This document shows positions 8,552-34,945 of a DNA stretch of 64,000 bases, piece after piece. The notes under the pieces were generated by a model, which made no database searches, was not told the origin of the DNA, and saw only the letters and a list, made by a program, of their open reading frames with translations. Made by a program: the position numbers and the translations under genes. This stretch comes from an uncultured Sulfitobacter sp. (GTDB taxonomy: Bacteria > Pseudomonadota > Alphaproteobacteria > Rhodobacterales > Rhodobacteraceae). Position 1 is the first letter of the stretch. Every line of letters begins with the position of its first letter. Where the stretch lies: contig CAKZPD010000005.1 of NCBI GenBank assembly GCA_937138475.1, positions 1 to 64,000 of the forward strand, read 5' to 3'.

Positions 8552-8597
8552 ACACCGCTCTGTGGCATCTTGCCCGCACATCAAAAGGAAAAGCGCG

Positions 8598-13615: not shown

Positions 13616-13643
13616 ATTCGCTTTACTTCAGGGAGGAAATCTA

Positions 13644-17965: not shown

Positions 17966-18046
17966 GCGGGGTCTCCTGCTGCTTGTCTCTTTCAAGCACA
18001 CTGGCGGGGCAAAGCCCAGATGGACGTTGCATGGCCGGTGTGGGCG

Positions 18047-19143: not shown

Positions 19144-19158
19144 GATCTGGTCCTTGGG

Positions 19159-20586: not shown

Positions 20587-21405
20587 TCACAGGTGTGGGA
20601 TCAACGGGGCATCGCCAGCGCCCAGCAAACGGGAAATCCGCGCCGCCGTATCCCGGACACTTTTGACAATTGTCTCGGGCACCACAGCACCCACTTCGGC
20701 GTTGGTGGTGGCGTTGATGGCGGCAATCACCTTGCCGGTCATATCGCGCAGCGGGGCCGCCACTGAGGTCATCCCCGCCTCAAAACTGCCGATTTGAATA
20801 ACCGTTTCTGATGCCCGATCTTGCTGGGCTTGGCGCAGCAGCTGGCCCGTCATCCTGTCGCTGGGGTGCGGCAGCTGGCGGTTCTTGCGCAGCACCGCGA
20901 TCAAGGTGTCTTGATCCAGATCCGCCAACAAAACCCGTCCCATTGTTGTGCTGGCTGCGGGAAGACGGCTGCCGACATGAACGATACTGCCCAGGCCAAG
21001 ACGGCTGGGCACGCGCAACATATAGAGCACCTGCGCCGCATCCCGCACGCCAAGATGTGTTGACCAATCGGTGTCATCGCGCAGGCGCTCAAGCTCTGGC
21101 AGGGCGATTTCGACCAGCTCGCGGGTGGCAAGATAACCAAAGCCAAGCCGCATGACCGCCGGACCCAGGGCATAGGTTTTTCGGGCAGGATCGTGCAGCA
21201 GATACCCCATCTGCGCCAATGTATAAACCGTGCGAAACGCGGCGGACCGGCTAAGGTCGATGGCGCGCGCAATATCTGACAGGGTCATCTCGCGGTGCTC
21301 GGGGGTGAACACGGACAACACCGCAAGCCCACGCATCAGTCCCGGCACAAGATAGCGATCCTCGGTTGGGTCAAGCCGGCTGTCGGGGTCATGTGTTTTA
21401 TCCAT
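20587..21405 (-). CDS. IclR-family transcriptional regulator (third)
   Basis: IclR regulator of 272 residues with an N-terminal winged helix (GLMRGLAVLSVFTPEH, LSRSAAFRTVYTLAQMGYL) and an effector domain (STHLGVRDAAQVLYMLRV, ASTTMGRVLLADLDQD, IGSFEAGMTSVAAPLRD). It resembles the PcaR/PobR side of the family. It diverges from the bicupin gene with about 84 bases between starts and lies downstream of nothing obvious. A 16-base palindrome spans its own start codon. Candidate targets are the bicupin gene and the FMO run. Confidence 0.9.
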   Translation of the reverse strand: MDKTHDPDSRLDPTEDRYLVPGLMRGLAVLSVFTPEHREMTLSDIARAIDLSRSAAFRTVYTLAQMGYLLHDPARKTYALGPAVMRLGFGYLATRELVEIALPELERLRDDTDWSTHLGVRDAAQVLYMLRVPSRLGLGSIVHVGSRLPAASTTMGRVLLADLDQDTLIAVLRKNRQLPHPSDRMTGQLLRQAQQDRASETVIQIGSFEAGMTSVAAPLRDMTGKVIAAINATTNAEVGAVVPETIVKSVRDTAARISRLLGAGDAPLIPHL

Positions 21406-21489: not shown

Positions 21490-22437
21490 ATGAACATCCA
21501 AGATAAATCCATTTCGACGCTGGCCAAGGATTTGGCGGCGCATACGGGGCGCTTTACCGGCAAGACATTCGATTGGAACGCCTTTCCGTCGAACGCCGGA
21601 TTTGCCGATCTGGAACGGGCGCAGATGCGCTATATCGGGGCGGGCGGGTCGCCCAAGGTCGGAGACACATCGACGCTAAAGCCCGACCACTTTACCCTGT
21701 CGCTGATTTATAAAGAACCGGGCAAATACGCCGCCTGTCACAGCCACGAGATCGAAGAAAGCTTTTTGATCATCAACGGGGCGCTGATCGTTGGCTGGGA
21801 GCGCGATGGCGAAGTGGTCGAGGTCAATCTTGGCCCCAAGGACATGATATTGAACGCCCGCGATGTCGGCCATGGCTTTCGGGTCGACGGCCCCGAGCCG
21901 GTCTTGATGACCATCTCGGTGGATGTCGGGAAACCCTTGCCACCCAAATACCATTACCACCCCAAGGAACACGCCCCGGAACTGGCGCGCAGTTTTGGCG
22001 CCGCACCGGGAAAGACCCTGCCATTTGATCGAAACGGGGCGCATCCGCTGCAACAACAGATGGGTAAATTCGTCATTCGCCATGCCGAAGCGCCCACAAT
22101 TTGGGAAGACGCCGGCTTTGCCCGCAAGGTATATGTGGGCGATGGCGGCGTGGTCAATGACAGCTGCCGGAAGGAAATGTGGGACATCCCAAGCCGCGTT
22201 GGCGTGCAACCATTCACCCGCAAGGTCGAAGACGCTTTTCTGGTTCTGGAAGGATCATTGACCGTCGGATGGGAAGAAAACGGCGAAACCGTCGAGGTCG
22301 AACTTGGCCCACGCGATCTGGTCAAAACCCCGGCAGGGCGCAAACATTGGTTCCGCAACAACTCCGCCGGCCATGCAACCGTCTGGACCGTCATCGGCAC
22401 GGCGCAAGACGATCAGCTTCGCTATGTAAAGGCCTGA
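21490..22437 (+). CDS. Bicupin protein
   Basis: Protein of 315 residues with two cupin domains. The first (about residues 70-145) keeps metal ligands: HSHEIEE and a later GHGF histidine. In the second (about 235-310) the HxH pair is replaced by FTRK, with only the glutamate (VEDAF) and the late histidine (GRKHWF) left, so only the first site probably binds metal. The start ATG 21490 follows GGGGG; ATG 21478 is an alternative. It diverges from the third IclR gene. It could be a ring-cleaving dioxygenase, isomerase or sensor; I cannot choose. Confidence 0.8.
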   Translation: MNIQDKSISTLAKDLAAHTGRFTGKTFDWNAFPSNAGFADLERAQMRYIGAGGSPKVGDTSTLKPDHFTLSLIYKEPGKYAACHSHEIEESFLIINGALIVGWERDGEVVEVNLGPKDMILNARDVGHGFRVDGPEPVLMTISVDVGKPLPPKYHYHPKEHAPELARSFGAAPGKTLPFDRNGAHPLQQQMGKFVIRHAEAPTIWEDAGFARKVYVGDGGVVNDSCRKEMWDIPSRVGVQPFTRKVEDAFLVLEGSLTVGWEENGETVEVELGPRDLVKTPAGRKHWFRNNSAGHATVWTVIGTAQDDQLRYVKA

Positions 22438-22491: not shown

Positions 22492-23634
22492 TCAGCCGAT
22501 ATCTGCCAAGGGCACGGTCCAGGCGTGATATCCATAAACCCAATCGGCGTTGCCGCCTTCCTTTAGCCATTCATTGGCCAGCGATCCGCGCTGAATTTCC
22601 GCGGTGCGGTCGCGCCGGGCATCTTCATAGGCGCCAAGCGCGGCGGGAACATCACCGGGCGACCCTGAAATGGCCCGCGCCAGGACCACCGCGTCTTCGA
22701 TTGCCATACAGGCCCCCTGCGCCATGAACGGCACCATCGGATGGGCCGCATCCCCCAGCAACGTCGCACGCCCCTGTGACCAACTCGGCATTGGGTCACG
22801 CACATGCAGCGCCGAACGCGTAACCGCGTGGCAAGCGTCAAGCAGGGCGCGGGCCTCGGGATGAAAATCTTGATAGGCAGCGCGCAAAACGCCAATATCC
22901 CCCGGAAGGGTCCACCCTTCGGTTTGCCAGTCGGATTGCGGCGTTGTGGCGAACACGAAAACCTCGCGGCCGCCGGTCAAAGGAAAGGTCACAATTTGGC
23001 GGGCAGGATCCGGCCCCCACCATTTGGTAAAGCTGTCAAGGTTGGCGATCCCGTCAAGGGCCGCACGCGGGACAACCGCCCGCCATGAGACAAGGCCGGT
23101 AAAGCGTGGCGCGTCCGCACCAAACATCGCCGAGCGAAGCACAGAGTGAATGCCATCAGCACCAATCAGCACGTCGGCCTGAATTTGGCTGCCGTCCTCC
23201 AAATCTATGGCGGCTGAGGCCGGTGTTTGCGTGACCCCCTGCGCCGCAACACCAAAGCGGATGGTGCCAGGGATCAGGGCCGCCTCAAGCGCTGCCAGCA
23301 AGTCCGCCCGGTGAATGGTCAATTGCGGGGCGCCATATTTTTCCTCGGCGGCGGCGCTCATGGGCAACCGCGAGGTCTCTCGACCGTCGTCCCACATTCG
23401 ACTGATCCGGTATTCAGGTCTGGCCGCCGTTTCGCGCAATCGCGCGCCGATCTGACCGCCAAGCCCATCCAATGCATGCACCGCATTCGGGGTCAGGTTC
23501 ACATCCGCGCCAACCCGACCAAAGGCCGAGGTGCGTTCAAAAATGGATACATCGTGCCCCTTGGCTTGCAACGCAATGGCGGCCGTCATCCCGCCAACAC
23601 CACCCCCAACAATTGCTATTCTCAATGGCTTCAT
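22492..23634 (-). CDS. FAD-dependent aromatic monooxygenase, salicylate/6-hydroxynicotinate hydroxylase type
   Basis: Single-component flavoprotein hydroxylase of 380 residues. It has the FAD fingerprint GGGVGGMTAAIAL (9-21), the DG motif (VLIGADGIHSVLRS) and the GD motif (GDAAHPMVPFMAQGA). Relatives include salicylate 1-hydroxylase and 6-hydroxynicotinate 3-monooxygenase, which hydroxylate with loss of carboxyl. ATG 23634 is used; a GTG lies 12 bases upstream. It diverges from the Rieske operon, and an operator copy lies just upstream. In the pathway it could prepare the ring for extradiol cleavage (inference). Confidence 0.9.
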   Translation of the reverse strand: MKPLRIAIVGGGVGGMTAAIALQAKGHDVSIFERTSAFGRVGADVNLTPNAVHALDGLGGQIGARLRETAARPEYRISRMWDDGRETSRLPMSAAAEEKYGAPQLTIHRADLLAALEAALIPGTIRFGVAAQGVTQTPASAAIDLEDGSQIQADVLIGADGIHSVLRSAMFGADAPRFTGLVSWRAVVPRAALDGIANLDSFTKWWGPDPARQIVTFPLTGGREVFVFATTPQSDWQTEGWTLPGDIGVLRAAYQDFHPEARALLDACHAVTRSALHVRDPMPSWSQGRATLLGDAAHPMVPFMAQGACMAIEDAVVLARAISGSPGDVPAALGAYEDARRDRTAEIQRGSLANEWLKEGGNADWVYGYHAWTVPLADIG

Positions 23635-23650
23635 GGACGTTCTCACTTAT

Positions 23651-23679
23651 TGTTCAAATATAAACTATTCGTTCAATAA
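23651..23679 (-). promoter_or_regulatory. Operator-like repeat, site C
   Basis: Read on the - strand, ATTGAAC, five variable bases, then GTTTATATTTGAACA. It is an inverted copy of site B about 105 bases away. It lies 17-45 bases before the FAD monooxygenase start, where a bound regulator would block or assist polymerase. Confidence 0.65.
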
Positions 23680-23783
23680 ATAACATTCCTGCATCTAGCG
23701 CATTTGTCAATTCCCTGCATTCCACTGCCGATCTGAAAATGGAAGGGGCAAACAGGGTTGACAGTGCCGACCCTCAAGGGCAA

Positions 23784-23816
23784 TCTATATTGAACATACT
23801 GTTTATATTTGAACAC
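23784..23816 (+). promoter_or_regulatory. Operator-like repeat, site B
   Basis: The site reads TCTATATTGAACATA, then CTGTTTATATTTGAACA. Its first 15 bases equal site A at 1229, and the last 15 equal site C. It lies 34-66 bases before the first gene of the Rieske operon. An IclR dimer or tetramer, probably the one encoded at 1351-2148, is the expected ligand. Confidence 0.65.
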
Positions 23817-23849
23817 ATGCACGACTAGATCGATGGGGAAGGGGGAAAC

Positions 23850-24161
23850 ATGATGCAAAATGATACATTCAAAGACAGGCTGTCCGACCGCGCCAAGGAT
23901 ACCAGCCGGCCAATGCTGGCCCACCAATGCCAAGGCCGTGCGCTGACGGCGCAGGAAATGGCGCTGGCAGATGCGCTGATGGACATCTATCGCACCGATG
24001 GACATGACTTTGACCAAGTCGCCGCTGCCCTTCAGGCACGCGGTATTGCCGCGCCCAAATCTGGGCAAACCGATTGGACAAAGGCCCTGCTTGCCGCAGA
24101 GCTTGCGGCGATCAACGCTGACCTTGACGCAGCCTATGCCGAACACGGCTATGGCGCCTAG
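23850..24161 (+). CDS. Small protein with recombinase-like helix-turn-helix
   Basis: Protein of 103 residues, first gene of the Rieske operon, behind a good AAGGGGG ribosome site. Residues about 32-75 (LTAQEMALADALM, DFDQVAAALQARGIAAPKSG) resemble the HTH that follows the catalytic domain in large serine recombinases, but no recombinase is present. It might regulate the operon or act as a small partner of the oxygenase. The rest is helical and acidic. Function is not established; the position at the operon head argues that it is real. Confidence 0.7.
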   Translation: MMQNDTFKDRLSDRAKDTSRPMLAHQCQGRALTAQEMALADALMDIYRTDGHDFDQVAAALQARGIAAPKSGQTDWTKALLAAELAAINADLDAAYAEHGYGA

Positions 24162-24259
24162 GCGCCCCAATCGCGCGCCATAGGGCACATCAGCCCGCCC
24201 CGCGCCCGCGCGCCGCTGACCACAGGCAGATCGGGCCACACGACAAGAAAGACGGAAAA

Positions 24260-25318
24260 ATGACCCAGACCACCGATAAGAAGGCCCTGATCGAACAGCG
24301 CGTCAATCAAGGACTGCGCGGACAATGGTATCCGGTGTGCAAATCGGTCGAAGTCAAAGCATCCTGCCCCTATGGAACCCGCCTGCTGGGTGAAAAAATC
24401 GTGCTGTGGCGCGATCAGGCCGGCAAGTTGCGCTGTATCGAGGACTTCTGCCCGCATCGCGGCGCGCCGCTAAGCTTTGGGGAAATTCACCAAGGTCACA
24501 TCAGCTGCCGGTATCACGGGGTAAAAGTCGACGGCGACGGCGTGGTCGTCGAAGTGCCGGCAATGCCGGAATGTGCGCTTGAGGGGCGCAAGGCCGTCGC
24601 CTCATACACGGTGACCGAAGCCAATGACGCGGTGTTTGTCTATGTTCCCTCAGTTGACCGGCCGGATGCGCCGGAATTGGTCATCCCCGATGTTATGCGC
24701 GATGACACATGGGCCGGGTTCTTGTGCACCTCGGTCTGGGGGGCGAATTATCGCTATGCCTTGGATAACCTCGCGGATCCGATGCACGGCTGCTATCTTC
24801 ATGCTGAAAGCTTTACCCTGGCCTATGGGTCAAAGCAGGATCTGATGACGCTGGACAAAACTGACAGCGGCTTTCGCATTTCCCGCGTTGGCCAGACCGG
24901 CGAAAACTTTGATTGGACCGAATTCGAAGTGCATCCAGGCGGCATGTTCTGCTTTTTGGAAATCCCATACCCGCCCGCCGCCGGACCGGGCGGGGTCTTT
25001 CGCATTGTCGGCTTTGTGACACCGATGGATGCGCGCACAACCAAAGTGTTTTTCTGGCGGATGCGACAAGTAGAAGGTCTGGCCCGCGAAAGCTGGCGTT
25101 TTTTGTATCGGGCCAAGATGGAAAGCACCCATTGGGACGTGCTTGAACAAGACCGCGTGATGCTTGAGGGAATGCCCGATGATGCCCGCAAGCGCGAGAT
25201 GCTGTATCAGCACGATCTGGGCGTCAGCCGTATCCGTCAAATTCTGACACGCGCGGCAAAAGCCCAGATCGAGGCCGAATTGACGCAAGATACCGCAACG
25301 GCCGATCAAGCATGTTAA
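24260..25318 (+). CDS. Rieske non-heme iron aromatic oxygenase, alpha subunit
   Basis: Terminal oxygenase of 352 residues that inserts oxygen into an aromatic or related ring. The Rieske [2Fe-2S] ligands are CPHRGAPL (near residue 70) and CRYHG (near 88); the mononuclear iron site is NLADPMHGCYLH (about 173-184). No beta-subunit gene is nearby, so it is the alpha-only, vanillate O-demethylase/phthalate-oxygenase-like type. GGAAAA precedes the start. It overlaps the SDR gene by seven bases. Reductase and flavodoxin genes 7-8 kb downstream in the same operon probably supply electrons. Confidence 0.93.
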   Translation: MTQTTDKKALIEQRVNQGLRGQWYPVCKSVEVKASCPYGTRLLGEKIVLWRDQAGKLRCIEDFCPHRGAPLSFGEIHQGHISCRYHGVKVDGDGVVVEVPAMPECALEGRKAVASYTVTEANDAVFVYVPSVDRPDAPELVIPDVMRDDTWAGFLCTSVWGANYRYALDNLADPMHGCYLHAESFTLAYGSKQDLMTLDKTDSGFRISRVGQTGENFDWTEFEVHPGGMFCFLEIPYPPAAGPGGVFRIVGFVTPMDARTTKVFFWRMRQVEGLARESWRFLYRAKMESTHWDVLEQDRVMLEGMPDDARKREMLYQHDLGVSRIRQILTRAAKAQIEAELTQDTATADQAC

Positions 25319-26049
25319 CGGATCGGCATATCTTGGTAACCGGCGCGGCGCGGGGGCTTGGGGCGGTGATTGCACAAGCCCTGAGCGAGCACGGCGCCCG
25401 TCTGTATCTTGCCGATATTGCCCATGACGAAGGCCGCGCCACAGCCGATCGGATCGGGGCACAGTTTTTCCCGCTTGATCTGGGCGATGCCGCCCAAATC
25501 AACGCTTTGGCACGCGATCTGGGTGGGCAAACCGGCGGCAAGCTGGACGGGCTGGTCAACAATGGCGCCATCGCAACCGGTATCGGCGGCATCGGATTTG
25601 AAGCCGTCGACATCGACACCTGGGACAAAGTTCAGCGGGTCAACGTTCGGGGCACCTGGCTTATGACCCGCGCCTGCGCACCGCTTTTGCGTGCGTCAGA
25701 TGGTGGAAGGGTGGTGAATGTGGCCTCGGACACCGCGCTTTGGGGTGCGCCGAACCTTTTGCCCTATGTTGCAAGCAAAGGCGCGGTGATGGCCATGACC
25801 CATTCCCTCGCTCGCGAGTTGGGGCCGGATCGTATCGCGGTCACGGCAGTTGCGCCCGGTATCCTGACGACCCCCTCGACCGACTATGTTCCCGCGGAAC
25901 GTCACCGCCACTATGCCGAAGGTCGCGCGATCACTGGCCCGCAAGATCCGGGCGAGATCACCGATGTGATCGCCTTCTTGCTGACCCAAGGGGCTTTGAC
26001 CCTGACGGGGCAAGTCCTGCCCGTCAACAATGGCTTTGTTTTCAAATGA
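25312..26049 (+). CDS. Short-chain dehydrogenase/reductase
   Basis: NAD(P)-dependent SDR of 245 residues. It has the cofactor motif TGAARGLG (10-17), NNGA, and an intact catalytic set including YVASK. It directly overlaps the Rieske oxygenase gene, so oxidation of a cis-diol or hydroxylated product is the likely role (inference). It overlaps the alpha/beta hydrolase gene by ATGA. Confidence 0.9.
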   Translation: MLTDRHILVTGAARGLGAVIAQALSEHGARLYLADIAHDEGRATADRIGAQFFPLDLGDAAQINALARDLGGQTGGKLDGLVNNGAIATGIGGIGFEAVDIDTWDKVQRVNVRGTWLMTRACAPLLRASDGGRVVNVASDTALWGAPNLLPYVASKGAVMAMTHSLARELGPDRIAVTAVAPGILTTPSTDYVPAERHRHYAEGRAITGPQDPGEITDVIAFLLTQGALTLTGQVLPVNNGFVFK

Positions 26050-26885
26050 CTGACTGGCAATGCAAGGAAACCGCCGGCATTCGGTATTACGAACGCGATG
26101 GCCAGGGCGAGGCATTGATCCTGCTTCATGGGATTGGCTCATTCGGGGGGAGCTTTGCCCCACTTTTGCCTTGTCTTGAATCATGGCGGCGGGTGATCGC
26201 GTGGAACGCGCCCGGCTATCAGGGGTCTGCGGCGCTGGCGGCGGATTGGCCCACCGCCGCAGATTACGCGCAAGCGCTTGCCGGGGTTCTGGATCGGCTG
26301 GGGCTGGAACAGGTTTCATTGCTGGGCCATTCATTGGGCGCCTTGATGGGCGCAGCCTTTGCTGCGCGGCACCCCAAGCGGGTCCGCCGGTTGATTCTGG
26401 CCGCGCCGGCCTTGGGGCATGGCGTGGCGCCGGGCGGAGCGCTAAGCCAGGCCGCCCAAGCGCGGATTGATGATCTAGAGCGTATGGGCGCCGCCAAATT
26501 TGCCGCCGCGCGGGCCAAGCGCCTGTTGTTCGCCCCGCAGGAAAATCCAGACCTTCTGGCGCAGGTCCAAGCCGGGATGGCCCAGGTTTCCATGCCCGGT
26601 TACGGCCAAGCGGCGCGGATGCTCGCGGCCGGGGGGTTGGTTCAGGATGTCGAACGTCTGACCATGCGCACGGATGTCATCGTCGGGGCCGATGATCTGA
26701 TCACCCCGCCGCAAGACGCCCGGCGCGCCTTTGCTGCCCTGCGGCCCAGCGCCAAGGGGGATCTTTGCATCGTGCCCAAGGCAGGTCACGCGGTTTACCT
26801 TCAGGCGCCGCAAGCTGTTGCAACCGTGGTGATGACCGAAACCAACCCCGCCGCGTGCAACGCAAAACAAACGGAGACACATTAA
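26046..26885 (+). CDS. Alpha/beta hydrolase, possible ring-cleavage-product hydrolase
   Basis: Alpha/beta-fold hydrolase of 279 residues. The oxyanion region LLHGIGSFGGSF, the nucleophile elbow GHSLGA (serine near residue 96), a late aspartate (VIVGADDLITPP) and the histidine in PKAGHAVYLQ form the expected triad. The start is set by the ATGA overlap with the SDR gene; longer frames run inside that gene. Next to an extradiol dioxygenase, cleavage of the C-C bond of a meta-fission product is the natural guess, but ester or amide hydrolysis is possible. Confidence 0.9.
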   Translation: MTDWQCKETAGIRYYERDGQGEALILLHGIGSFGGSFAPLLPCLESWRRVIAWNAPGYQGSAALAADWPTAADYAQALAGVLDRLGLEQVSLLGHSLGALMGAAFAARHPKRVRRLILAAPALGHGVAPGGALSQAAQARIDDLERMGAAKFAAARAKRLLFAPQENPDLLAQVQAGMAQVSMPGYGQAARMLAAGGLVQDVERLTMRTDVIVGADDLITPPQDARRAFAALRPSAKGDLCIVPKAGHAVYLQAPQAVATVVMTETNPAACNAKQTETH

Positions 26886-27818
26886 ATGACCGACTCAATG
26901 ATCCGTGCTGGCGCCCTGAGGGGGATCATGATGCGCGGCCCCGGTTTGACCGAGACCTTGCCGTTTTACCAAGATATGTGGGGGCTTTGCCTTGCCCATG
27001 CAAAGGATGGGGTTGCTTTGTTGCGCGGCACCGGCGCCGAGCCATTTCTTTATGGCCTACGCGATGGTGATACGTTTGGCATCGAATATGTCCACTTTGC
27101 CATGCCTGACCAAGAAACAACCGACGCACTTTATGCGCAATGCCTGGACAGATCGGCGCGGGTGCTTGGCCCGCCAGCGGATTTCGACGACTGGGCGGGG
27201 GGCTATGGCTTTGAGGTTCTTGACCCTGACCACCGCCGCCTGCGGTTTCGCACCCAAGCGCGCGAACTGACACCCCAGCCTGATTGGTCCAAACCCAAAA
27301 AGGTCAGCCATGTGGTTCTGAACACGCCCGACATGGAGGGCGTTCAGGCATTCTATGAACAGACGCTTGGCTTTCGCGCATCGGATTATTCGGCCGATCA
27401 AATGGTGTTCTTGCGCTGCAACAGCGACCACCATTCGATTGCCTTGGTCCGCAACAACTATGCCAGCGTCAACCACGTCGCTTTTGAGCTGCCCACCCTT
27501 GATGAATTCATGCGGGCCATCGGACGGATGAAACAAAAAGGCCATGTGCCCAGCTGGGGACCAGGGCGGCATGGACCGGGCAACAATCCCTTTGCGTATT
27601 TTGTATCGCCCTCGGGGTTTGTGATCGAATTCACCAGCGAATTGCAGCAAATCGACGAAGCCACCCACACGGCCCAGATCTGGTCCCGCGACGACCCCGA
27701 AGCAATGGATCGCTGGATGACCGCCGGGCCGCCCACCCCGGCACAGCGGGCGGTCATGCAAGGGCGCCCCGACCCCGGTTGGCCTGCATTGTGGCCCAAC
27801 ACCGGGGGGGCGCGTTGA
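26886..27818 (+). CDS. Extradiol dioxygenase-like VOC protein
   Basis: Two-domain vicinal-oxygen-chelate protein of 310 residues, the length of type I extradiol dioxygenases. The C-terminal domain keeps the ligand pattern: histidine in KKVSHVVLNTP (near 140), histidine in SVNHVAFELP (near 198) and glutamate in GFVIEFTSE (near 250). It would open a catechol-type ring beside a hydroxyl using Fe(II). The start codon directly follows the hydrolase stop. Confidence 0.9.
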   Translation: MTDSMIRAGALRGIMMRGPGLTETLPFYQDMWGLCLAHAKDGVALLRGTGAEPFLYGLRDGDTFGIEYVHFAMPDQETTDALYAQCLDRSARVLGPPADFDDWAGGYGFEVLDPDHRRLRFRTQARELTPQPDWSKPKKVSHVVLNTPDMEGVQAFYEQTLGFRASDYSADQMVFLRCNSDHHSIALVRNNYASVNHVAFELPTLDEFMRAIGRMKQKGHVPSWGPGRHGPGNNPFAYFVSPSGFVIEFTSELQQIDEATHTAQIWSRDDPEAMDRWMTAGPPTPAQRAVMQGRPDPGWPALWPNTGGAR

Positions 27819-28606
27819 TGCAGCTGGGCTATGAAGATGCTGTTGCGGTTGTCACCGGCGGATCGTCAGGGATCGGGCTGGCCACGGTGCGGGTGTTGCT
27901 GCGCGCTGGCGCGCGGGTGGCCCTGTGTGCCCGCAACGCAGGGCGGCTTGACGATGTTGCCAATATTCTGCGCCGTGATCACGGCGACGACAAGGTGATG
28001 GCCAAGCCATTTTCCGTGTTGGACGAAGGTGCAGTCGCCACGTTTGCGGCGGACGTTCAGGATCGTTGGGGGCAATGCGACCTGTTGGTCAACAACGCGG
28101 GCCAAGGCCGTCAATCCACCTTTGCGACCACATCGAACGATGACTGGCGCGCAGAATACGAGCTTAAGCTGTTCAGCCAGATTTACCCGATCCGCGCCTT
28201 TGAGCCAATGCTGCGCAGCGCCAAGGGCGCCATTGTCGCGGTGAATTCGCTTTTGGCCTATCAGCCCGAACCGCATATGGTCTGCACCTCGTCGGCGCGG
28301 GCGGGTGTGCAAAATATGCTCAAGTCCCTCAGCGTCGAACTGGCCCCGGATGTCAGGGTGAATTCGGTCCTAATGGGGTTGATCGAAAGCGGGCAATGGA
28401 CCCGCCGCTTTGCCGCCCGCCAAGATCAAAGCGTCAGCCGCGCCGATTGGTATGGTGCCCTGGCCCAGCGCAAAGGCATCCCGCTGGGGCGTCTTGGCGA
28501 TCCGGTCGAGGCCGCCAACGCCATCGCATTTCTTGGCTCGCGCGCAGCGAGCTATATCACTGGTGCCCAGCTCGATGTGTCGGGCGGGCTGAACCGGCAC
28601 ATCTGA
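27818..28606 (+). CDS. SDR-family protein with altered catalytic residues
   Basis: Rossmann-fold SDR of 262 residues with cofactor motif TGGSSGIG (13-20) and NNAG. At the catalytic position the usual Y-x-x-x-K reads T-S-S-A-R, so the tyrosine and lysine appear replaced by threonine and arginine. A family with SARAG at this point is known among SDRs, so this may be a subfamily trait rather than damage. The start overlaps the dioxygenase stop by one base. It may be a binding protein, a lyase-like enzyme or an atypical reductase. Confidence 0.88.
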   Translation: MQLGYEDAVAVVTGGSSGIGLATVRVLLRAGARVALCARNAGRLDDVANILRRDHGDDKVMAKPFSVLDEGAVATFAADVQDRWGQCDLLVNNAGQGRQSTFATTSNDDWRAEYELKLFSQIYPIRAFEPMLRSAKGAIVAVNSLLAYQPEPHMVCTSSARAGVQNMLKSLSVELAPDVRVNSVLMGLIESGQWTRRFAARQDQSVSRADWYGALAQRKGIPLGRLGDPVEAANAIAFLGSRAASYITGAQLDVSGGLNRHI

Positions 28607-28616
28607 GGAGAGCACA

Positions 28617-30296
28617 ATGAAACACGATCCGATCGAGCAAACCGAGACGGTTGGCGATTTCATCGCGCGTTTTCTGGCCGATATCGGGGTGACAACGGTG
28701 TTCGGTGTGATCTCGATTCACAACATGCCGATTCTTGACGCCCTGGCCCGGCAGGGGCGTATTCGATTTATTCCTGCCCGCGGAGAAGCCGGCGCGATGA
28801 ATATGGCCGACGCCTTTGCCCGCGTTTCGGGTGGGCTTGGGGTGTGCATCACCTCGACCGGGACCGCGGCTGGAAATGCTGCCGGCGCCCAAGCCGAAGC
28901 CCTGACGGCAGGCAGCCGGGTGCTGCATATCACGTCGCAGGTCGATCTGGAATTTTGTGACCGCGATCGCGCCGCGATCCATGACGTTCCCCGACAACCC
29001 GAGATGCTGCGCGGCGTGTCCAAAGCCGTCTTTCGGATGTGGAGCGCCAGCGGCGCCATCGGCGTTCTGACCGCCGCCGTATCCGCAACCTTGTCTGCGC
29101 CAAGCGGGCCCGTCAGCCTTGAAATCCCTGTGGATGTTCAACGCGCCGCAGCCGGTGCATCGCCGAACGCTGTTCACGCCCCTGTGCCGTTGCGCCCGCA
29201 TGCCCCTGATGGGTTGGTCACAGAAATCGCAGACCACCTTAGGGCCGCCAAACGTCCGCTTTTGTGGCTGGGCGGCGGCGCGCGCGGCGCGGTGCGCGAG
29301 GCGACCGAATTGATGCAGCGCGGCGTCGGGATTGTCAGCTCGACCAATGGGCGCGGCATCGTATCCGAAGAATCCCCCGGCACCCTTGGCGCCTTCAACA
29401 TGGGACCAGAAGCCGCCGAACTGTATCAAAGCTGTGATTTGATGATTGTCGTCGGCTCGCGCTTGCGCGGGAACGAAACACGCAACAACAACCTGCCTTT
29501 GCCACGCCCGCTGCTTCAGATAGATGCCGATGCGGCACAGGGTGGGCGCAACTATCCGGTGCAGCTTTTTGCGCATGGCGACGCGGCGGACACCCTGCGC
29601 CGGGTGTTGGACCTGTTACCAGAAAAACTGAAGGTTGATCCCGGCCTTGGCTTTGATATCGCCAAAGCGCGGGCGATGGCCGAAGGGGCGCTGCGCGGAC
29701 GGCTTGGCCCCTATGCGATCGTGGCCGAGGCGCTGAACGCCGCTGTCGTCGAAGGCGATCACATCTGGGTGCGTGATGTCACGATTTCCAACTCGACCTT
29801 TGGCAACAGATATGTGCGGCTTGCCCATCCACACCAAGGGGTTCATGCGCTTGGCGGCGGTATCGGTCAGGGCATTGCAATGGGGATTGGCGCAGCCTTG
29901 GCATCCCCGCCCGGCAAAAAGGCGATCACCCTTTTGGGGGATGGGGGTGCGATGCTGGGGCTGGCGGAAATGATCACCGCAGTAGAGGAAAGCGCCCCCC
30001 TGGTTTATGTGCTGATGAACGATCAGGCCTATGGGGTGATCCAGAACATCCAGGATGCCCAGTATGAGCGCCGGCGCCATTATTCCGCCCTGCAAACCAC
30101 CGATTTCGCGCAATTTTGCGGCGCGGTTGGCATGCCGCACCATCTTGCTGCATCGGCTGAGGGCTTTGCGGCAACGCTCAGGACCGCTCTGGCCGCGAAT
30201 GGGCCGCAATTGATCGAGGTCGATATGTGCACCATCGGCCCGTTTGCAGAGCCCTTTGCCGGCCCACCCGCCGGTGCCGCCCAAAAGGCGGGCTAG
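28617..30296 (+). CDS. ThDP-dependent enzyme, decarboxylase or acetolactate-synthase-like
   Basis: Thiamine-diphosphate enzyme of 559 residues, the full family length. It has the glutamate-containing RGEAGAMNMADAFAR in the N-terminal domain, a central domain with LLWLGGGARGA and the ThDP/Mg motif GDGGAMLGLAE to MNDQAYG in the C-terminal domain. The family includes benzoylformate and other 2-oxo acid decarboxylases. With an aldehyde dehydrogenase downstream, decarboxylation of a 2-oxo acid to an aldehyde fits (inference). GGAGAG precedes the start. Confidence 0.92.
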   Translation: MKHDPIEQTETVGDFIARFLADIGVTTVFGVISIHNMPILDALARQGRIRFIPARGEAGAMNMADAFARVSGGLGVCITSTGTAAGNAAGAQAEALTAGSRVLHITSQVDLEFCDRDRAAIHDVPRQPEMLRGVSKAVFRMWSASGAIGVLTAAVSATLSAPSGPVSLEIPVDVQRAAAGASPNAVHAPVPLRPHAPDGLVTEIADHLRAAKRPLLWLGGGARGAVREATELMQRGVGIVSSTNGRGIVSEESPGTLGAFNMGPEAAELYQSCDLMIVVGSRLRGNETRNNNLPLPRPLLQIDADAAQGGRNYPVQLFAHGDAADTLRRVLDLLPEKLKVDPGLGFDIAKARAMAEGALRGRLGPYAIVAEALNAAVVEGDHIWVRDVTISNSTFGNRYVRLAHPHQGVHALGGGIGQGIAMGIGAALASPPGKKAITLLGDGGAMLGLAEMITAVEESAPLVYVLMNDQAYGVIQNIQDAQYERRRHYSALQTTDFAQFCGAVGMPHHLAASAEGFAATLRTALAANGPQLIEVDMCTIGPFAEPFAGPPAGAAQKAG

Positions 30297-30299
30297 GCC

Positions 30300-31121
30300 A
30301 TGCGCATTGGGATCATTGGTTTTGGCAATATCGCGGCAAGTCTGCTGGATCTGTTGGATCGAAGCGACCTGACACCGGCGCATGTTGCGGTGCTTGCCTC
30401 GGCCCGAGGTGCGGATGCGGCGCGGGCGCAATTGGCGCAAAGGGGCCAATTGCGCCCCCACACACAGGCGGTGGTGACGACCGCCGAAGCGCTTGTCGAG
30501 GAAACCCCAAATCTGGTGATCGAATGTGCGGGCCATGGGGCCGTCATCAGCCACGTCCCGACGATTTTGCAGGCCGGCATTGATGTTATTGTTGTCTCGG
30601 TCGGTGCGCTGGCGGATGCGGCATTGGCCGAAACCCTAAGGCACGCGGCACAGGCGGGCGGGGCACAGGTGATCCTGCCTGCCGGCGCGGTGGGCGGCAT
30701 TGACCTGTTGTCTGCCTTGTCTGTGGCAGATGGGCTTGAGGTGCGCTATCGCGGAACCAAGCCCCCGCGCGCCTGGGCCGGCAGCCGAGCCGAAGACACC
30801 ATTGATCTGGCCGCAACCAGCACCGCCACCGTGTTTTTTCAGGGCAGCGCCCGCCAAGCGGCATTGGCCTTTCCAAAAAACGCCAATGTCGCGGCGACCT
30901 TGGCGCTGGCCGGGGCGGGGCTTGACGATACGCTGGTTGAGCTGATCGCCGATCCAGCGGCGGCAGGCAACATCCACAGCTATGAGGTGCGTTCTGCGAT
31001 TGCCAATTACCGCATGGAAATCGAAAGCCTGCCATCGGCGGGCAATGCCAAAACCAGCGCATCCACCGTCTATTCGATCCTGCGGGCGATACGAAACCGA
31101 ACCAATTGGGTGACACTTTGA
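30300..31121 (+). CDS. Aspartate dehydrogenase-like protein (DUF108/NadX family)
   Basis: NAD(P)-dependent amino-acid-dehydrogenase-like protein of 273 residues with the N-terminal fingerprint GIIGFGNIA (4-12), VIECAGHGAV, and the family's PAGAVGGIDLLSAL and RGTKPP stretches. Known relatives oxidise L-aspartate to iminoaspartate. The gene starts three bases after the ThDP enzyme gene and overlaps the aldehyde dehydrogenase gene by one base. Its presence suggests an amino group in the pathway or amination of a 2-oxo acid intermediate (inference). Confidence 0.88.
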   Translation: MRIGIIGFGNIAASLLDLLDRSDLTPAHVAVLASARGADAARAQLAQRGQLRPHTQAVVTTAEALVEETPNLVIECAGHGAVISHVPTILQAGIDVIVVSVGALADAALAETLRHAAQAGGAQVILPAGAVGGIDLLSALSVADGLEVRYRGTKPPRAWAGSRAEDTIDLAATSTATVFFQGSARQAALAFPKNANVAATLALAGAGLDDTLVELIADPAAAGNIHSYEVRSAIANYRMEIESLPSAGNAKTSASTVYSILRAIRNRTNWVTL

Positions 31122-32638
31122 TGGACAAAACAGCAAAGGATTGGGCCGCCGAACTGCCAGACGGGCAGCTTTTTCTTGGCGGTGAATGGCGGCAGGGAAC
31201 CGGCGCAGAAATCGTTTCAACCTTTCCCGCTGATGGCAGCGTCAACCGGGTGTTAAGCGGCGCGTCAACCTCGGATGGCAATGAGGCCATTGACCGCGCC
31301 AAACGCGCGCAAGCCGACCCGTCTTGGCGGGCATTACGGCCACACGAACGGGCCAGGTATCTATATCGCATCGCCGACGGCCTGGAACGCAACGCGGCGC
31401 GGGTGTCGCACATTCAGTCGCTTGATACAGGCAAAACCCTGGCGGAAACACAGGCGCTGGCCCTGTCGGCCGCAGGCACGTTCCGTTACTTTGGCGCCGT
31501 GGCCGAAACCATGGACGACGATCTGACCGCCCAACGCGGCACCGCCCTGACCCTTTCGGTCTTTGACCCCTTGGGCGTGGTTGCGGCCATCACCCCTTGG
31601 AATTCACCCATAGCGTCAGATGCACAAAAGGTGGCGCCCGCCTTGGCGGCCGGCAACGCCGTGATCCTTAAACCTGCGTCTTGGGCCCCTTTGACCGCGC
31701 TTGAGCTGGCGCGCATCATTGACGACGCAGGCCTGCCCAAAGGGTTGTTTTCCGTGCTGCCCGGATCGGGCAGCCAGATCGGAAACCTGTTGGTTGAGCA
31801 CCCCGATATCGCCAAAGTCAGCTTTACCGGCGGCACACAAACCGGGCGCGCTTTGGCGCACAAAGCCGCGGAAAAGCTTATGCCCATCAGCCTTGAACTG
31901 GGGGGGAAATCTCCAACTATCGTCTTTGCCGATGCGGATATGAACCAAGCCATCGCCGGGGTGATGTTCGGGATTTTCTCGTCCTCGGGCCAAAGCTGTA
32001 TCGCAGGTTCGCGGCTTTTTGTTCAGCGCGCGGTCTATGATGAATTTGTTGCCCGGCTGGTTGCAGCAACCAAGGCGCTGAGGGTGGGGCATCCCTTTGA
32101 CTGCGCAACCCAGGTTGCACCGTTGATCCACCCCGATCACCAAAGCGAAGTCGCCGGCCATGTGAACCGCGCCCTTGAAGACGGCGCCACATTGCTGTGC
32201 GGCGGCAAACCCCCCATGGGCGACAGCTTTGCCAAAGGAAATTATTTCGAACCAACGATCCTTGCCGATCTGCCCAACACGGCGCGCCTGTGCCGTGACG
32301 AGGTGTTCGGCCCGGTCTTGGCCGTGCTGCCCTTTGACGACGAAGCAGATGTGATTGCAGCGGCAAACGACAACGATTACGGCCTTGCTTGCGGGATTTG
32401 GACCCGCGATTTCACCCGCGCTTGGCGGGTCGGTCGCGCCATTCGCGCCGGCACCGTTTGGCACAACACCTATAAGCAATTCTCGATTTCGACCCCCTTT
32501 GGCGGCGACGGCGACAGCGGCATCGGCCGCGAAAAAGGCCGGCAAGGGTTGCGGGCCTATATGCGCCAAAAAAGCATCTACACAGACCTGAGCGGCGCCC
32601 CCCACCCATGGGCCGGCCCAATTCCGGGGTCAACATGA
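31121..32638 (+). CDS. NAD(P)-dependent aldehyde dehydrogenase
   Basis: Aldehyde dehydrogenase of 505 residues. ITPWNSP near residue 155, the general base in LELGGKSP and the nucleophile in SSGQSCIAGSR are in place; EVFGPVL follows. It probably oxidises the aldehyde from the ThDP enzyme. The start overlaps the previous stop (TGATG) and the end overlaps the reductase gene by ATGA. Confidence 0.93.
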   Translation: MDKTAKDWAAELPDGQLFLGGEWRQGTGAEIVSTFPADGSVNRVLSGASTSDGNEAIDRAKRAQADPSWRALRPHERARYLYRIADGLERNAARVSHIQSLDTGKTLAETQALALSAAGTFRYFGAVAETMDDDLTAQRGTALTLSVFDPLGVVAAITPWNSPIASDAQKVAPALAAGNAVILKPASWAPLTALELARIIDDAGLPKGLFSVLPGSGSQIGNLLVEHPDIAKVSFTGGTQTGRALAHKAAEKLMPISLELGGKSPTIVFADADMNQAIAGVMFGIFSSSGQSCIAGSRLFVQRAVYDEFVARLVAATKALRVGHPFDCATQVAPLIHPDHQSEVAGHVNRALEDGATLLCGGKPPMGDSFAKGNYFEPTILADLPNTARLCRDEVFGPVLAVLPFDDEADVIAAANDNDYGLACGIWTRDFTRAWRVGRAIRAGTVWHNTYKQFSISTPFGGDGDSGIGREKGRQGLRAYMRQKSIYTDLSGAPHPWAGPIPGST

Positions 32639-33876
32639 CCGGCAAGATCTGCATCATCGGTGCCGGGCCTTCCGGCTGTTTTCTTGCGCAGGCGCTGCTT
32701 AAATCTGCACCGGGCCTTGAGGTTGACGTGATTGACGCGCTGCCCGTGCCATTTGGGTTGGTCCGCTATGGCGTGGCCGCTGATCACCAAGGAACCAAGG
32801 CCATCGCGCGCCAGTTCGCCCGAATTTTCGAACGGCAGGGTGCGCGCTTTTTGGGCAATATCTGTGTGGGCCGCGATATCACCTTGACACAATTGCAGGC
32901 GGCTTATGACGTTGTGGTCTTGGCCGCAGGTCTGTCCGGCGATCGCCGCTTGGGCATTTCCGGGGATACCCTTTCTGGCGTTTATGGCGCCGGGTCGCTG
33001 ACCCGTGCCCTGAATGAACACCCAGACGCCCCCCCTTTGCCGGTTTTGGGCCCAAGGCCGTTGATCATCGGAAACGGCAATGTCGCCCTTGATATCCTGC
33101 GCCTTCTGGCCAAAACCCAAGCCGAGCTTGAAGGATCGGACCTGGGGCCAGGGCCAAGCCAATGGCTGGCGCAAAACCGGATTGACCATCTGACAATTGT
33201 CGGGCGTGCCGCCCCCGAACGGGCAAAATTCGACACCGTTATGCTGAAAGAATTGGCCAAGCTGTCTGATGTCACGATCCAGATGAACGATATCGCACCC
33301 AGCGCCACAGATGCCGATGGTGAAAAACTTTTGCAGTCATTGACCGGCCTTGACGGCAAATCGGATGGGCCGCGCCAATTGATCTTTCGTTTCGGCCTTA
33401 CGCCCTTGGCGCTGACTGGCGATACGCATGTGCGCGCCGCGCATTTTTCCAACGCAGCGCAACAACAGGTGGACATCCCCTGTTCATCAGTCATCACCGC
33501 CATCGGGTTTGAGGCCCAGAACGATTGGTTGCCGCGCGATGCTCTGATCCAGTCTGCGGCTGACCTCAGCTCTGGTCGGCTTGGCCCTCGGCTTTATGCG
33601 GCCGGTTGGTTTCGCCGCGGGCCACGCGGCACAATCCCAGAGCACCGCACAGATGCCCAAATACTGGCCCGAACCATTCTGGCCGATCTGGATCCCGATG
33701 CAGGGCGCGCCGGGCGACGCGCGCTTGGCCAGATCAAACAAGTCACAGACTTTGACGGATGGCTGCGCATTGATGCCGCCGAAACCCAATCCCCACCGAC
33801 CGGGCGCTGCCGCAGCAAGATTTCCTCGCGTTTGCGGATGGTGCAGATCGCGCAGCAAGAAGGGACACGACAATGA
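32635..33876 (+). CDS. Adrenodoxin-reductase-type ferredoxin/flavodoxin NADP reductase
   Basis: Flavoprotein reductase of 413 residues, related to FprA of mycobacteria and mitochondrial adrenodoxin reductase. The FAD motif GAGPSG is at residues 9-14, PFGLVRYGVAADH near 40 is a hallmark, and the NADP region carries GNGNVALDILR. It would pass electrons from NADPH to a one-electron carrier. The next gene, coupled by ATGA, is a flavodoxin; no ferredoxin gene is in the cluster. Likely role: electron supply to the Rieske oxygenase. Confidence 0.9.
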   Translation: MTGKICIIGAGPSGCFLAQALLKSAPGLEVDVIDALPVPFGLVRYGVAADHQGTKAIARQFARIFERQGARFLGNICVGRDITLTQLQAAYDVVVLAAGLSGDRRLGISGDTLSGVYGAGSLTRALNEHPDAPPLPVLGPRPLIIGNGNVALDILRLLAKTQAELEGSDLGPGPSQWLAQNRIDHLTIVGRAAPERAKFDTVMLKELAKLSDVTIQMNDIAPSATDADGEKLLQSLTGLDGKSDGPRQLIFRFGLTPLALTGDTHVRAAHFSNAAQQQVDIPCSSVITAIGFEAQNDWLPRDALIQSAADLSSGRLGPRLYAAGWFRRGPRGTIPEHRTDAQILARTILADLDPDAGRAGRRALGQIKQVTDFDGWLRIDAAETQSPPTGRCRSKISSRLRMVQIAQQEGTRQ

Positions 33877-34340
33877 AGATCACAATTCTATACGGCACAG
33901 AAACCGGAAACGCCGAAATGCTGGCCGAGGACATTCAGGCCGAATTTGAGGCCGCGCATGACGTCAATTGTCAAAACCTGTCCGAGACGTCGCCAGACGA
34001 CCTTGCCCCGGACCGGTTCTATCTTTTGGTCTGTTCGACCTATGGCGATGGCGATCTGCCGGCCTCGGCCCAGCCGTTCGGCGCCGCGCTGACCAAGGCC
34101 CAGCCCGATCTGTCACAGGTTCACTTTGCAATCTTTGGGCTGGGCGACAGCGAATATGATGAAACCTTTAACCATGGCCCCCAGAAATTGGCCACGCTGA
34201 TGACGGCCTGCGGCGCCATTCAGCTTGGGCCGCGCATCGCACATGATGCATCTGGCGCCGACTTGGCCGAGGATCTGGCCATGCCTTGGGCCTCAGCCGT
34301 GATTGCGCTGGCCCAGACGGCCTTGGGTATCCCGGCGTGA
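33873..34340 (+). CDS. Flavodoxin
   Basis: FMN-binding electron carrier of 155 residues. The phosphate loop YGTETGNAE is at residues 7-15, STYGDGDLPASAQPF (near 55) and FGLGDSEYDETF (near 88) line the FMN, as in MioC and short-chain flavodoxins. It overlaps the reductase gene by ATGA and the pentapeptide gene by GTGA. It is the probable partner between that reductase and the Rieske oxygenase. Confidence 0.93.
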   Translation: MKITILYGTETGNAEMLAEDIQAEFEAAHDVNCQNLSETSPDDLAPDRFYLLVCSTYGDGDLPASAQPFGAALTKAQPDLSQVHFAIFGLGDSEYDETFNHGPQKLATLMTACGAIQLGPRIAHDASGADLAEDLAMPWASAVIALAQTALGIPA

Positions 34341-34945
34341 CCACCCTGTCTGCGCAAAAGCTGCGCGCGCAGCTGACCACGGCGCATCGGCACGGAAAGC
34401 ACGTCGATCTGAGCGGCGTGACATGTCAGGGGGTACTGGATCTAAGGGGCTGTGATCTGTCGGGGTTCGATCTGTCGGGGGCGCATTTTCCGCAAGGTCT
34501 GGATGCACGCGGCGCCCGGTTTCTGGGGCTTAGCTGGTTTACCGGTATCAAGGTTGGGTCCACCGCCGATTTCAGCACTGCCATTTTCCTGAATGACGCG
34601 CGATTTGAGGCCGCCGATTTTCAGGGCAGCGCCATCTTTTCCGACACTGAATTTCGCGGAATTGCCCGATTTGACCGCGCACAGTTTAATGCAGGCGCCC
34701 AGTTTCAACGCACCGTCGCCTATGGGAACTTTTCGCTTGAGGCCGCCCACATCCAAGGCAAGGCCAGTTTTCGCAGCAGCGAGTGGCTGGGCGGGCTTTG
34801 GTGCCAAGATACGTCGCTTGCGCCCGGCACCGACCTTTCGCACACCCAAGTACACGGGCGGCTGTGGCTGCGCGGCGCCCAGCTTGGCAACGCCGCGTTG
34901 CCGGCTGCTGCTTTCGGGATGGCATTTGGCTATGCCTATCGCTGA
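34337..34945 (+). CDS. Pentapeptide-repeat-like protein
   Basis: Protein of 202 residues built of imperfect five-residue repeats (GVLDLRGCDLSGFDLSGAHF, then ADFSTAIF, ADFQGSAIF, ARFDRAQF), giving a right-handed beta-helix. The start is GTG 34337 in a GTGA overlap with the flavodoxin stop; the ATG at 34286 would lie deep inside that gene. It ends the operon. Function is unknown; such proteins can be scaffolds or mimic nucleic acid. No signal peptide is seen. Confidence 0.8.
   Translation: MTTLSAQKLRAQLTTAHRHGKHVDLSGVTCQGVLDLRGCDLSGFDLSGAHFPQGLDARGARFLGLSWFTGIKVGSTADFSTAIFLNDARFEAADFQGSAIFSDTEFRGIARFDRAQFNAGAQFQRTVAYGNFSLEAAHIQGKASFRSSEWLGGLWCQDTSLAPGTDLSHTQVHGRLWLRGAQLGNAALPAAAFGMAFGYAYR

Follow-up and report, generated by a model that had tools for sequence, protein, structure and literature searches.

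A Conserved Proteobacterial Operon Is a Candidate Gene Set for Aerobic Kynurenate Catabolism

Introduction

What compound is degraded by an operon in which an aspartate dehydrogenase (AspDH)–like gene lies among genes for aromatic ring cleavage? The question arises from a 64,000-nucleotide stretch of DNA from an uncultured Sulfitobacter sp. (the window), which forms the first 64 kb of a 125-kb contig (CAKZPD010000005.1) in a genome of 2.8 Mb. An earlier note, made from the sequence alone, had listed here a flavin hydroxylase, a Rieske oxygenase, two short-chain dehydrogenases/reductases (SDRs), an alpha/beta hydrolase, an extradiol dioxygenase, a thiamine diphosphate (ThDP) enzyme, the AspDH-like protein, and an aldehyde dehydrogenase (ALDH), all of which are present as open frames with Pfam matches. 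A nitrogen-bearing aromatic or heteroaromatic substrate, as that note proposed, would still most simply explain why an AspDH-like enzyme is encoded next to ring-cleavage enzymes. Its statement that the set maps onto no known route is probably wrong, because the set corresponds to the classical kynurenate route, which titles from that literature support; the route was absent from the note's list.

Kynurenic acid (kynurenate, or 4-hydroxyquinoline-2-carboxylate) is a by-product of tryptophan. Its bacterial breakdown, the classical kynurenate ("quinoline") pathway, was reportedly described by Hayaishi, Taniuchi, and Kuno and by Dagley and Johnson, and includes the activities EC 1.14.99.2, 1.3.1.18, and 1.13.11.10; to our knowledge, its enzymes have no sequences. 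Among the open-access papers listed in our searches, none was found that assigns genes to kynurenate degradation, although a published assignment could exist elsewhere. We put the probability that the cluster encodes aerobic kynurenate catabolism at about two in three.

Results

Enzyme Classes of the Operon Probably Match the Kynurenate Route

The core of the locus is a plus-strand operon of eleven genes, 24260–34945, running from the Rieske gene through a pentapeptide-repeat gene (Table 1). Neighboring genes overlap or sit no more than 10 bases apart (spacing in order: −7, −4, 0, −1, 10, 3, −1, −4, −4, and −4 bases). The earlier view of 22492–34945 as one gene set holds in the sense of a coherent catabolic unit; the co-directional operon is confined to the core, and the flavin hydroxylase lies on the minus strand. 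An SDR, an extradiol dioxygenase of the VOC type, a second SDR, a ThDP decarboxylase-like enzyme, and an ALDH, the classes matching those of the classical route, are found together in this one operon. At the level of enzyme class, the cluster thus probably matches, step by step, the enzymes of kynurenate breakdown described in the 1960s.

In the proposed route, the Rieske protein, fed by the reductase and the flavodoxin, would convert kynurenate to its 7,8-dihydrodiol, and the first SDR (SDRa) would oxidize the dihydrodiol to 7,8-dihydroxykynurenate. Cleavage between C8 and C8a by the VOC enzyme would yield 5-(3-carboxy-3-oxopropenyl)-4,6-dihydroxypicolinate, whose side-chain double bond would be reduced by the second SDR (SDRb). 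Decarboxylation by the ThDP enzyme would give a 2-formylethyl compound, from which the ALDH would make 5-(2-carboxyethyl)-4,6-dihydroxypicolinate. The intermediates up to this carboxyethyl compound belong to the classical biochemistry of the 1960s; which gene serves which step, and every step beyond that compound, is our proposal. The flavin hydroxylase (FMOar) would hydroxylate the carboxyethyl-dihydroxypicolinate, and the alpha/beta hydrolase (ABhyd) would act on the pyridine ring, opened between C4 and C5 with splitting of the amide, to release a C5 acid (2-hydroxyglutarate or 2-oxoglutarate) and iminosuccinate. The latter would carry N1, C2 with its carboxyl, C3, and C4, and would be reduced to L-aspartate by the AspDH-like protein. 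The carbons balance as 10 = 4 + 5 + 1, and the computed formulas balance as well.

This scheme would account for an AspDH among ring-cleavage genes through the release of iminosuccinate. It is the arrangement found in kynurenate, with nitrogen beside the carboxyl-bearing carbon and an oxygenated carbon two positions further on, that would give such an enzyme a job. Going by their titles, classic studies reported the enzymatic formation of 7,8-dihydroxykynurenate, and the conversion of kynurenate by Pseudomonas extracts to glutamate, alanine, and acetate; opening at C4–C5 with amide splitting agrees with glutamate and alanine as products. The proposed flavin step has a precedent in HcdA (PMC6222606), a flavin hydroxylase that attacks a dihydroxyaryl propionate at the ipso position.

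The electron supply fits the earlier suggestion that the cluster has a redox chain of its own, which consists of the reductase and the flavodoxin; no match to a ferredoxin family was found in the operon. For a Rieske oxygenase, supply by a flavodoxin would, as far as we know, be unusual. Among 69 loci with a Rieske gene, 23 have a reductase with a flavodoxin, 18 a BenC/PaaE-like reductase, and 6 a Rieske-type ferredoxin or another reductase; in the remaining 22 no partner was seen.

Active Sites Are Intact, with One Atypical SDR

Residues were compared among open frames within set score and length limits, at most one per locus and gene, at positions known to be catalytic in each class. The CxH/CxxH cluster ligands and the N-D-H-H iron motif of the Rieske protein are invariant (58 of 58 aligned), as are S139, Y152, and K156 of SDRa (43/43), Ser96, Asp217, and His248 of ABhyd (71/71), Glu57, GDG, and Asn468 of the ThDP enzyme (87/87), Asn224 and His226 of the AspDH-like protein (70/70), and Cys293 and Glu259 of the ALDH (59/59). 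The VOC enzyme keeps a two-His-one-Glu iron triad (His142, His197, and Glu248; 31/31), a divergent VOCb type lying outside this alignment. The oddness that the earlier note had sensed in SDRb can be located precisely: Ser144 is kept, and Thr157 and Arg161 stand at the positions of the YxxxK tyrosine and lysine, as set by spacing from Ser144, in all 63 aligned members. SDRb is therefore unlikely to be an ordinary alcohol dehydrogenase, and a double-bond reductase is a reasonable guess.

Three of these features were counted for the kynurenate reading. Every enzyme class needed for the classical upper route is encoded here in the same direction, with catalytic residues as expected in all aligned members; the SDR predicted to carry out something other than an alcohol–ketone conversion is the one that lacks YxxxK; and the nearest solved relative of FMOar acts on a hydroxypyridine carboxylate. 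That relative is 6-hydroxynicotinate 3-monooxygenase (5eow, 276 bits), followed by tropone 2-monooxygenase (237 bits). FMOar stays under the cutoffs of the curated models for 3-hydroxybenzoate 6-monooxygenase (261 bits, cutoff 459) and salicylate monooxygenase (176, cutoff 446).

Curated models name the class of several other proteins. SDRb exceeds the cutoff of PRK07062 (380 versus 266 bits), and its nearest solved relative (3lf1, "Q9HYA2"; 283 bits) is presumably a Pseudomonas aeruginosa protein. The ThDP enzyme exceeds that of PRK07064 (753 versus 495), with BbmA as its nearest solved relative. The AspDH-like protein passes PRK13303.1-3 (253 versus 177) and PRK13303.1-2 (243 versus 226), falls under the cutoffs for PRK13303.1-1 and NadX, and is nearest to 1h2h and 1j5p, named TM1643 and aspartate dehydrogenase. 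SDRa reaches 190 of the 325 bits required by the pyridoxal 4-dehydrogenase model. Phthalate, carbazole, and related oxygenases are the nearest solved relatives of the Rieske protein, and 3b59, a protein without a stated function, is the nearest structure for the VOC enzyme. For none of FMOar, VOC, AspDH, ThDP, and Rieske does the nearest solved relative name the substrate.

These comparisons bear on a different explanation, in which another aromatic compound, with or without nitrogen, is degraded, VOC and ABhyd form an ordinary meta-cleavage pair, and AspDH serves general ammonia or oxaloacetate metabolism. In its favor, the best solved sequence matches of ABhyd are BphD-type meta-cleavage hydrolases (51 bits), the best models for VOC are HpaD and C23O, the ALDH matches BADH, HpaE, and HMSD, and the C-terminal domain of the Rieske protein is VanA-like. 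However, all of these models lie far under their curated cutoffs (HpaD 71 of 321 bits, C23O 68 of 320, HpaE 477 of 638, with the ALDH also under the BADH cutoff), and the operon genes show no match to hydratase or aldolase families. The ABhyd model (predicted local distance difference test score, pLDDT, 94) has enol-lactonase and esterases as its nearest folds, which fits a hydrolase and leaves the cleaved bond unfixed; a C-C hydrolase of the meta-cleavage type is absent from the best 50 matches of one structural comparison and is represented several times in the Foldseek list, so that ABhyd may still have such a function. A meta-cleavage pair would leave unexplained why the ThDP enzyme, the atypical SDR, and AspDH stay together across Alpha-, Beta-, and Gammaproteobacteria, and we regard this explanation as improbable.

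Several known routes were likewise dropped: those for catechol, protocatechuate, and homoprotocatechuate on curated cutoffs (PcaD 92 of 256 bits), and those for gentisate, nicotinate, and vitamin B6 on enzyme content, in part from background knowledge and with NicX, NicF, and the like outside the search. The iac indole-acetate, homarine, and trigonelline routes were set aside on background knowledge only.

The Gene Set Is Conserved and Its Members Diverge Together

Relatives were sought in named genomes with an alignment of 14 ThDP proteins; at least 595 stretches matched, 562 of them encoding a relative, and the best 80 were kept. Loci were selected by the ThDP gene: 104 with a hit became 101 once the repeats L081, L086, and L162 (the same genome as L042) were removed, and gene content was compared in the 83 of these that span 14 kb or more. 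The 83 include L031, whose ThDP protein is a distant relative and which lacks the cluster; further genome repeats may remain. The neighborhood comparison that the earlier note had proposed for ThDP, AspDH, and ALDH places AspDH in 76 of the 83 loci and ALDH in 66, with ABhyd in 80, SDRb in 79, VOC in 69, Rieske and a cupin in 64 each, SDRa in 63, and FMOar in 37. In 61 loci the ThDP gene is accompanied by all five of ABhyd, VOC, SDRb, AspDH, and ALDH, and 48 of these also have Rieske and SDRa. The ThDP/AspDH/ALDH/SDR set recurs widely with an IclR gene, and the conservation of the gene set is far beyond chance. RidA-like genes, found in 13 of 83 loci, would be compatible with imine intermediates.

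Among the hosts are marine roseobacters, Hyphomicrobiales, Burkholderiales, and SUP05-type gammaproteobacteria, and the ThDP family was detected at E ≤ 1e-120 in 15 of 398 genomes sampled from the phylum. Named strains with the cluster include Pseudodonghicola xiamenensis DSM 18339 (L049), Nitratireductor pacificus pht-3B (L053), and Ruegeria marisrubri ZGT118 (L051, with no FMOar seen in its flank). Much of the set is also present in the seven plasmid records inspected of 18 that matched (Pseudosulfitobacter, Nitratireductor, Paracoccus, two Caballeronia, Novosphingobium, and Vibrio nigripulchritudo), with no Rieske gene annotated in the V. nigripulchritudo plasmid stretch.

Could the genes be functionally separate modules that are neighbors by accident? 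Gene order and partners do vary between loci, as electron-transfer genes, cupin type, and transporter differ. Against this stand the overlapping genes of one operon, the 61 loci just described, and the correlated divergence of all nine proteins, whose pairwise identities correlate across loci with r of 0.66–0.94 (without a control for the species tree). Accidental proximity is therefore highly improbable, and the correlated divergence was counted for kynurenate catabolism.

Seven of the loci (L085, L089, L095, L101, L104, L106, and L110), from uncultured Rhizobiales or Beijerinckiaceae metagenome-assembled genomes (MAGs), have Rieske, SDRb, ThDP, and AspDH genes and no VOC or ALDH gene within the flank; a lake origin for them is a guess from isolate names. 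A protein of about 100 residues, described as recombinase-like helix-turn-helix, precedes Rieske or transporter genes in L126, L128, L129, L130, L131, and L166. It is assigned to HTH_62 in L126 and by annotation in the other five, and was seen in 28 of 83 loci.

Tryptophan Genes and Transporters Give Mixed Evidence

A match to tryptophan dioxygenase (TDO, PF03301) was found in 35 of 53 cluster genomes. In the phylum sample, 10 of 15 cluster-bearing genomes have TDO versus 98 of 383 others (Fisher p 0.0013), the ThDP and TDO scans being taken to cover the same 398 genomes from their agreeing handles. In the window's own genome, TDO lies side by side with a kynureninase-like gene, recognized by eye and then used as a query, on another contig. 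TDO and kynureninase lie 9–10 kb upstream of the cluster's first gene in G266, and a kynureninase lies about 6 kb from it in two related gammaproteobacterial loci (L070 and L079). Transport shows a further association, in that 48 of the 49 loci carrying an NMT1-type ABC transporter gene also carry a Rieske gene, a count that includes repeat loci. The transporter/Rieske co-occurrence, the TDO enrichment, and the nearby TDO and kynureninase genes were all counted for the kynurenate reading.

A number of observations weigh on the other side. No TDO match was found in 18 of the 53 cluster genomes, and the family to which the window belongs shows no association between TDO and the cluster (4 of 5 versus 12 of 22, p 0.62); taxonomy may therefore explain the difference at the phylum level. 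Flanks of as much as 10 kb around the searched cluster loci contained no TDO, save the G266 stretch fetched for its TDO, and wherever else a comparison was possible it lay on another contig or far off, so that physical linkage to tryptophan genes is rare. The nearest relatives of known function of FMOar, VOC, and ALDH act on other compounds. FMOar is found within only 37 of the 83 loci, ALDH is missing in 17, AspDH in 7, and VOC in 14 within the flank, many of these last being uncultured Rhizobiales or Beijerinckiaceae MAGs. A whole-genome search at E ≤ 1e-70 left six of the 45 cluster genomes without a Rieske match (Chelativorans multitrophicus, Pelagibacterium lentulum, Sedimentitalea nanhaiensis, Cucumibacter marinus, Aliiroseovarius crassostreae, and Limimaricola cinnabarinus). 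Finally, P. aeruginosa presumably carries related genes. A kynU mutant of this species is reported to accumulate kynurenic acid to 100 µM in rich medium, which counts against kynurenate catabolism if the organism has the full cluster.

The six Rieske-less genomes also favor the nearest rival, in which the same lower pathway serves another quinoline-2-carboxylate: xanthurenate (8-hydroxykynurenate, perhaps as its sulfate ester) or quinaldate. Such a compound would join the route at the level of 7,8-dihydroxykynurenate or through a prior molybdenum hydroxylase step. In line with such a substrate, a sulfatase is found near the cluster in nine distinct loci, with a DctP gene in six, and xanthine-oxidase-family subunits adjoin the cluster in four (L029, L065, L093, and L113; Pfam-tested in L065 and L093 only). 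Four such neighbors in some 80–100 loci, however, come close to chance by a rough, uncomputed estimate, and a MobA-like phenol hydroxylase, a candidate for xanthurenate entry, is absent from all six Rieske-less genomes. The window itself has both Rieske and SDRa, and we consider this rival unlikely.

Three lines of argument were discarded. Linkage to molybdenum hydroxylases, so near the chance expectation, was not accepted as proof of an N-heterocycle, and the MobA-like protein, which adjoins the cluster in L042 and L076 and is found in 7 of 45 genomes overall, was rejected as an alternative entry enzyme. An apparent group of TRAP/sulfatase clusters without Rieske (11 of 13 DctP loci, repeats included) is largely an artefact of the 10-kb flank, as the genome-wide search finds a Rieske gene in 39 of 45 genomes; it lies on the same contig, 9–11 kb from the ThDP gene, in G397, G266, G296, G225, and G337.

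The sulfatases of the nine loci (L041, L042, L043, L070, L072, L077, L079, L091, and L104, counted without the duplicates L081 and L086) lie 2–7 kb from the ThDP gene. In the window, a sulfate-ester island to the left of the cluster contains sulfatase-like genes, a metallo-beta-lactamase-like protein, a fused TRAP/TAXI-like transporter, and an FGE-type sulfatase activator, the metallo-beta-lactamase and TAXI readings being made by eye. The nearby sulfatases may point to sulfated substrates. A TRAP solute-binding protein at the contig start, its partner genes beyond that start and out of view, is 71–85% identical to DctP near the cluster in L076, L043, L079, L042, L091, L041, and L082.

Layout of the Locus and Neighboring Genes

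Upstream of the operon lie the NicC-like FMOar (56–79% identical to 14 aligned relatives), a bicupin, and an IclR regulator; the latter two, outside 22492–34945, recur with the cluster in relatives. The bicupin is 64–83% identical in 13 aligned relatives. Its model, of low confidence (pLDDT 62), shows a generic bicupin fold; in a structural comparison aimed at ring-cleaving bicupins of the gentisate 1,2-dioxygenase type, oxalate decarboxylases, quercetinase, and salicylate dioxygenase rank alike. The IclR protein scores 171 bits against the PcaR/PcaU subfamily model, under the cutoff of 285, and its divergent placement is the same in L126 and L166, where a pentapeptide protein is also annotated at the operon end. 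The ATG of the reductase overlaps the ALDH stop, and an alternative upstream start at 32608 is also open. On the left, the cluster is adjoined by genes for a DUF1028 protein and for a flavin oxidoreductase that is MSMEG_0569-like (356 bits, under the cutoff of 498).

Table 1. Features of the window, with match basis and putative role.
Feature	Position	Strand	Basis and proposed role
TRAP solute-binding protein	33–1001	−	
Sulfate-ester island	8562–10262, 10259–11524, 11528–14621, 15547–18001		
DUF1028 protein and MSMEG_0569-like flavin oxidoreductase	18047–20430	−	
IclR-family regulator, PcaR/PcaU-like	20587–21405	−	Pfam IclR_C/HTH_IclR; divergent from cupin
Bicupin	21490–22437	+	Two Cupin_2 matches
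FMOar, class A flavin hydroxylase	22492–23646	−	Pfam FAD_binding_3; proposed pyridine-ring hydroxylation/opening
Rieske oxygenase alpha subunit	24260–25318	+	Rieske + VanA_C; proposed kynurenate 7,8-dioxygenase
SDRa, classical SDR	25312–26049	+	Proposed dihydrodiol dehydrogenase
ABhyd, alpha/beta hydrolase	26046–26885	+	Pfam Abhydrolase; proposed hydrolysis of opened pyridine ring
VOC extradiol dioxygenase	26886–27818	+	Pfam Glyoxalase; proposed 7,8-dihydroxykynurenate 8,8a-dioxygenase
SDRb, atypical SDR	27818–28606	+	PRK07062; proposed side-chain double-bond reductase
ThDP enzyme	28617–30296	+	Pfam TPP enzyme N/M/C, PRK07064; proposed 2-oxo-acid decarboxylase
AspDH-like protein	30300–31121	+	Asp_DH_C + NAD_binding_3, PRK13303; proposed iminosuccinate reductase
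ALDH	31121–32638	+	Pfam Aldedh; proposed maker of 2-carboxyethyl side chain
Pyridine-nucleotide reductase of oxygenase chain	32635–33876	+	Pyr_redox_2, weak GltD-like matches
Flavodoxin	33873–34340	+	Flavodoxin_1; proposed electron carrier to Rieske protein
Pentapeptide-repeat protein	34337–34945	+	Pentapeptide_3; GTG start assumed from overlap

Discussion

In its fullest form, the model would suggest that the cluster represents the missing genes of bacterial kynurenate catabolism, with a flavodoxin-fed Rieske oxygenase, a T-x-x-x-R SDR that reduces a C=C bond, and a new kind of pyridine opening that releases half of the ring as iminosuccinate, to be trapped as aspartate. With a common lower route to which different transporters and entry enzymes can be coupled, Proteobacteria of sea and soil would share kynurenate, and perhaps sulfated xanthurenate, as a nutrient. 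We regard the chances of this complete picture as evenly balanced.

If true, it would supply genes to a pathway for which none was found named and would allow degraders to be identified in genomes and in gut, soil, and sea metagenomes. It would also bring the pyridine-opening half of the pathway within reach of direct tests, and would correct the annotation of the cluster's "aspartate dehydrogenase," which is labelled as NAD biosynthesis in four of the seven inspected plasmid records. No paper was found that treats two of PA3504, PA3505, and PA3506 together, no relevant literature that joins AspDH with a ThDP enzyme or with a Rieske protein, and, among the homarine papers listed, none that by title concerns its genes.

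How does the cluster compare with known systems? In the homoprotocatechuate (Hpa) meta pathway, HpaD and HpaE are distant counterparts of VOC and ALDH, both of which fall far under the HpaD and HpaE cutoffs. The degradation of vitamin B6 (MHPCO, AAMSH) and nicotinate (NicC) shares a flavin hydroxylase for a hydroxypyridine, with an alpha/beta hydrolase as the next enzyme. FMOar, however, scores 276 bits against NicC and 95 against MHPCO, and the hydrolase only 34 against AAMSH; we know of no Rieske, VOC, ThDP, or AspDH enzyme in these routes. The hcdABC pathway for 7-hydroxycoumarin in Pseudomonas mandelii (PMC6222606) combines an ipso flavin hydroxylase on a dihydroxyaryl propionate with an extradiol dioxygenase and a hydrolase; in contrast to the cluster, its substrate is benzenoid, the dioxygenase acts after the flavin step, and the three-gene operon has no AspDH. 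The classical kynurenate pathway differs in that it is known as biochemistry, with no genes named for it among the papers listed; the pyridine opening is our proposal. The two are alike in their enzyme types, from ring dihydroxylation, diol dehydrogenation, and extradiol cleavage through reduction and decarboxylation to aldehyde oxidation.

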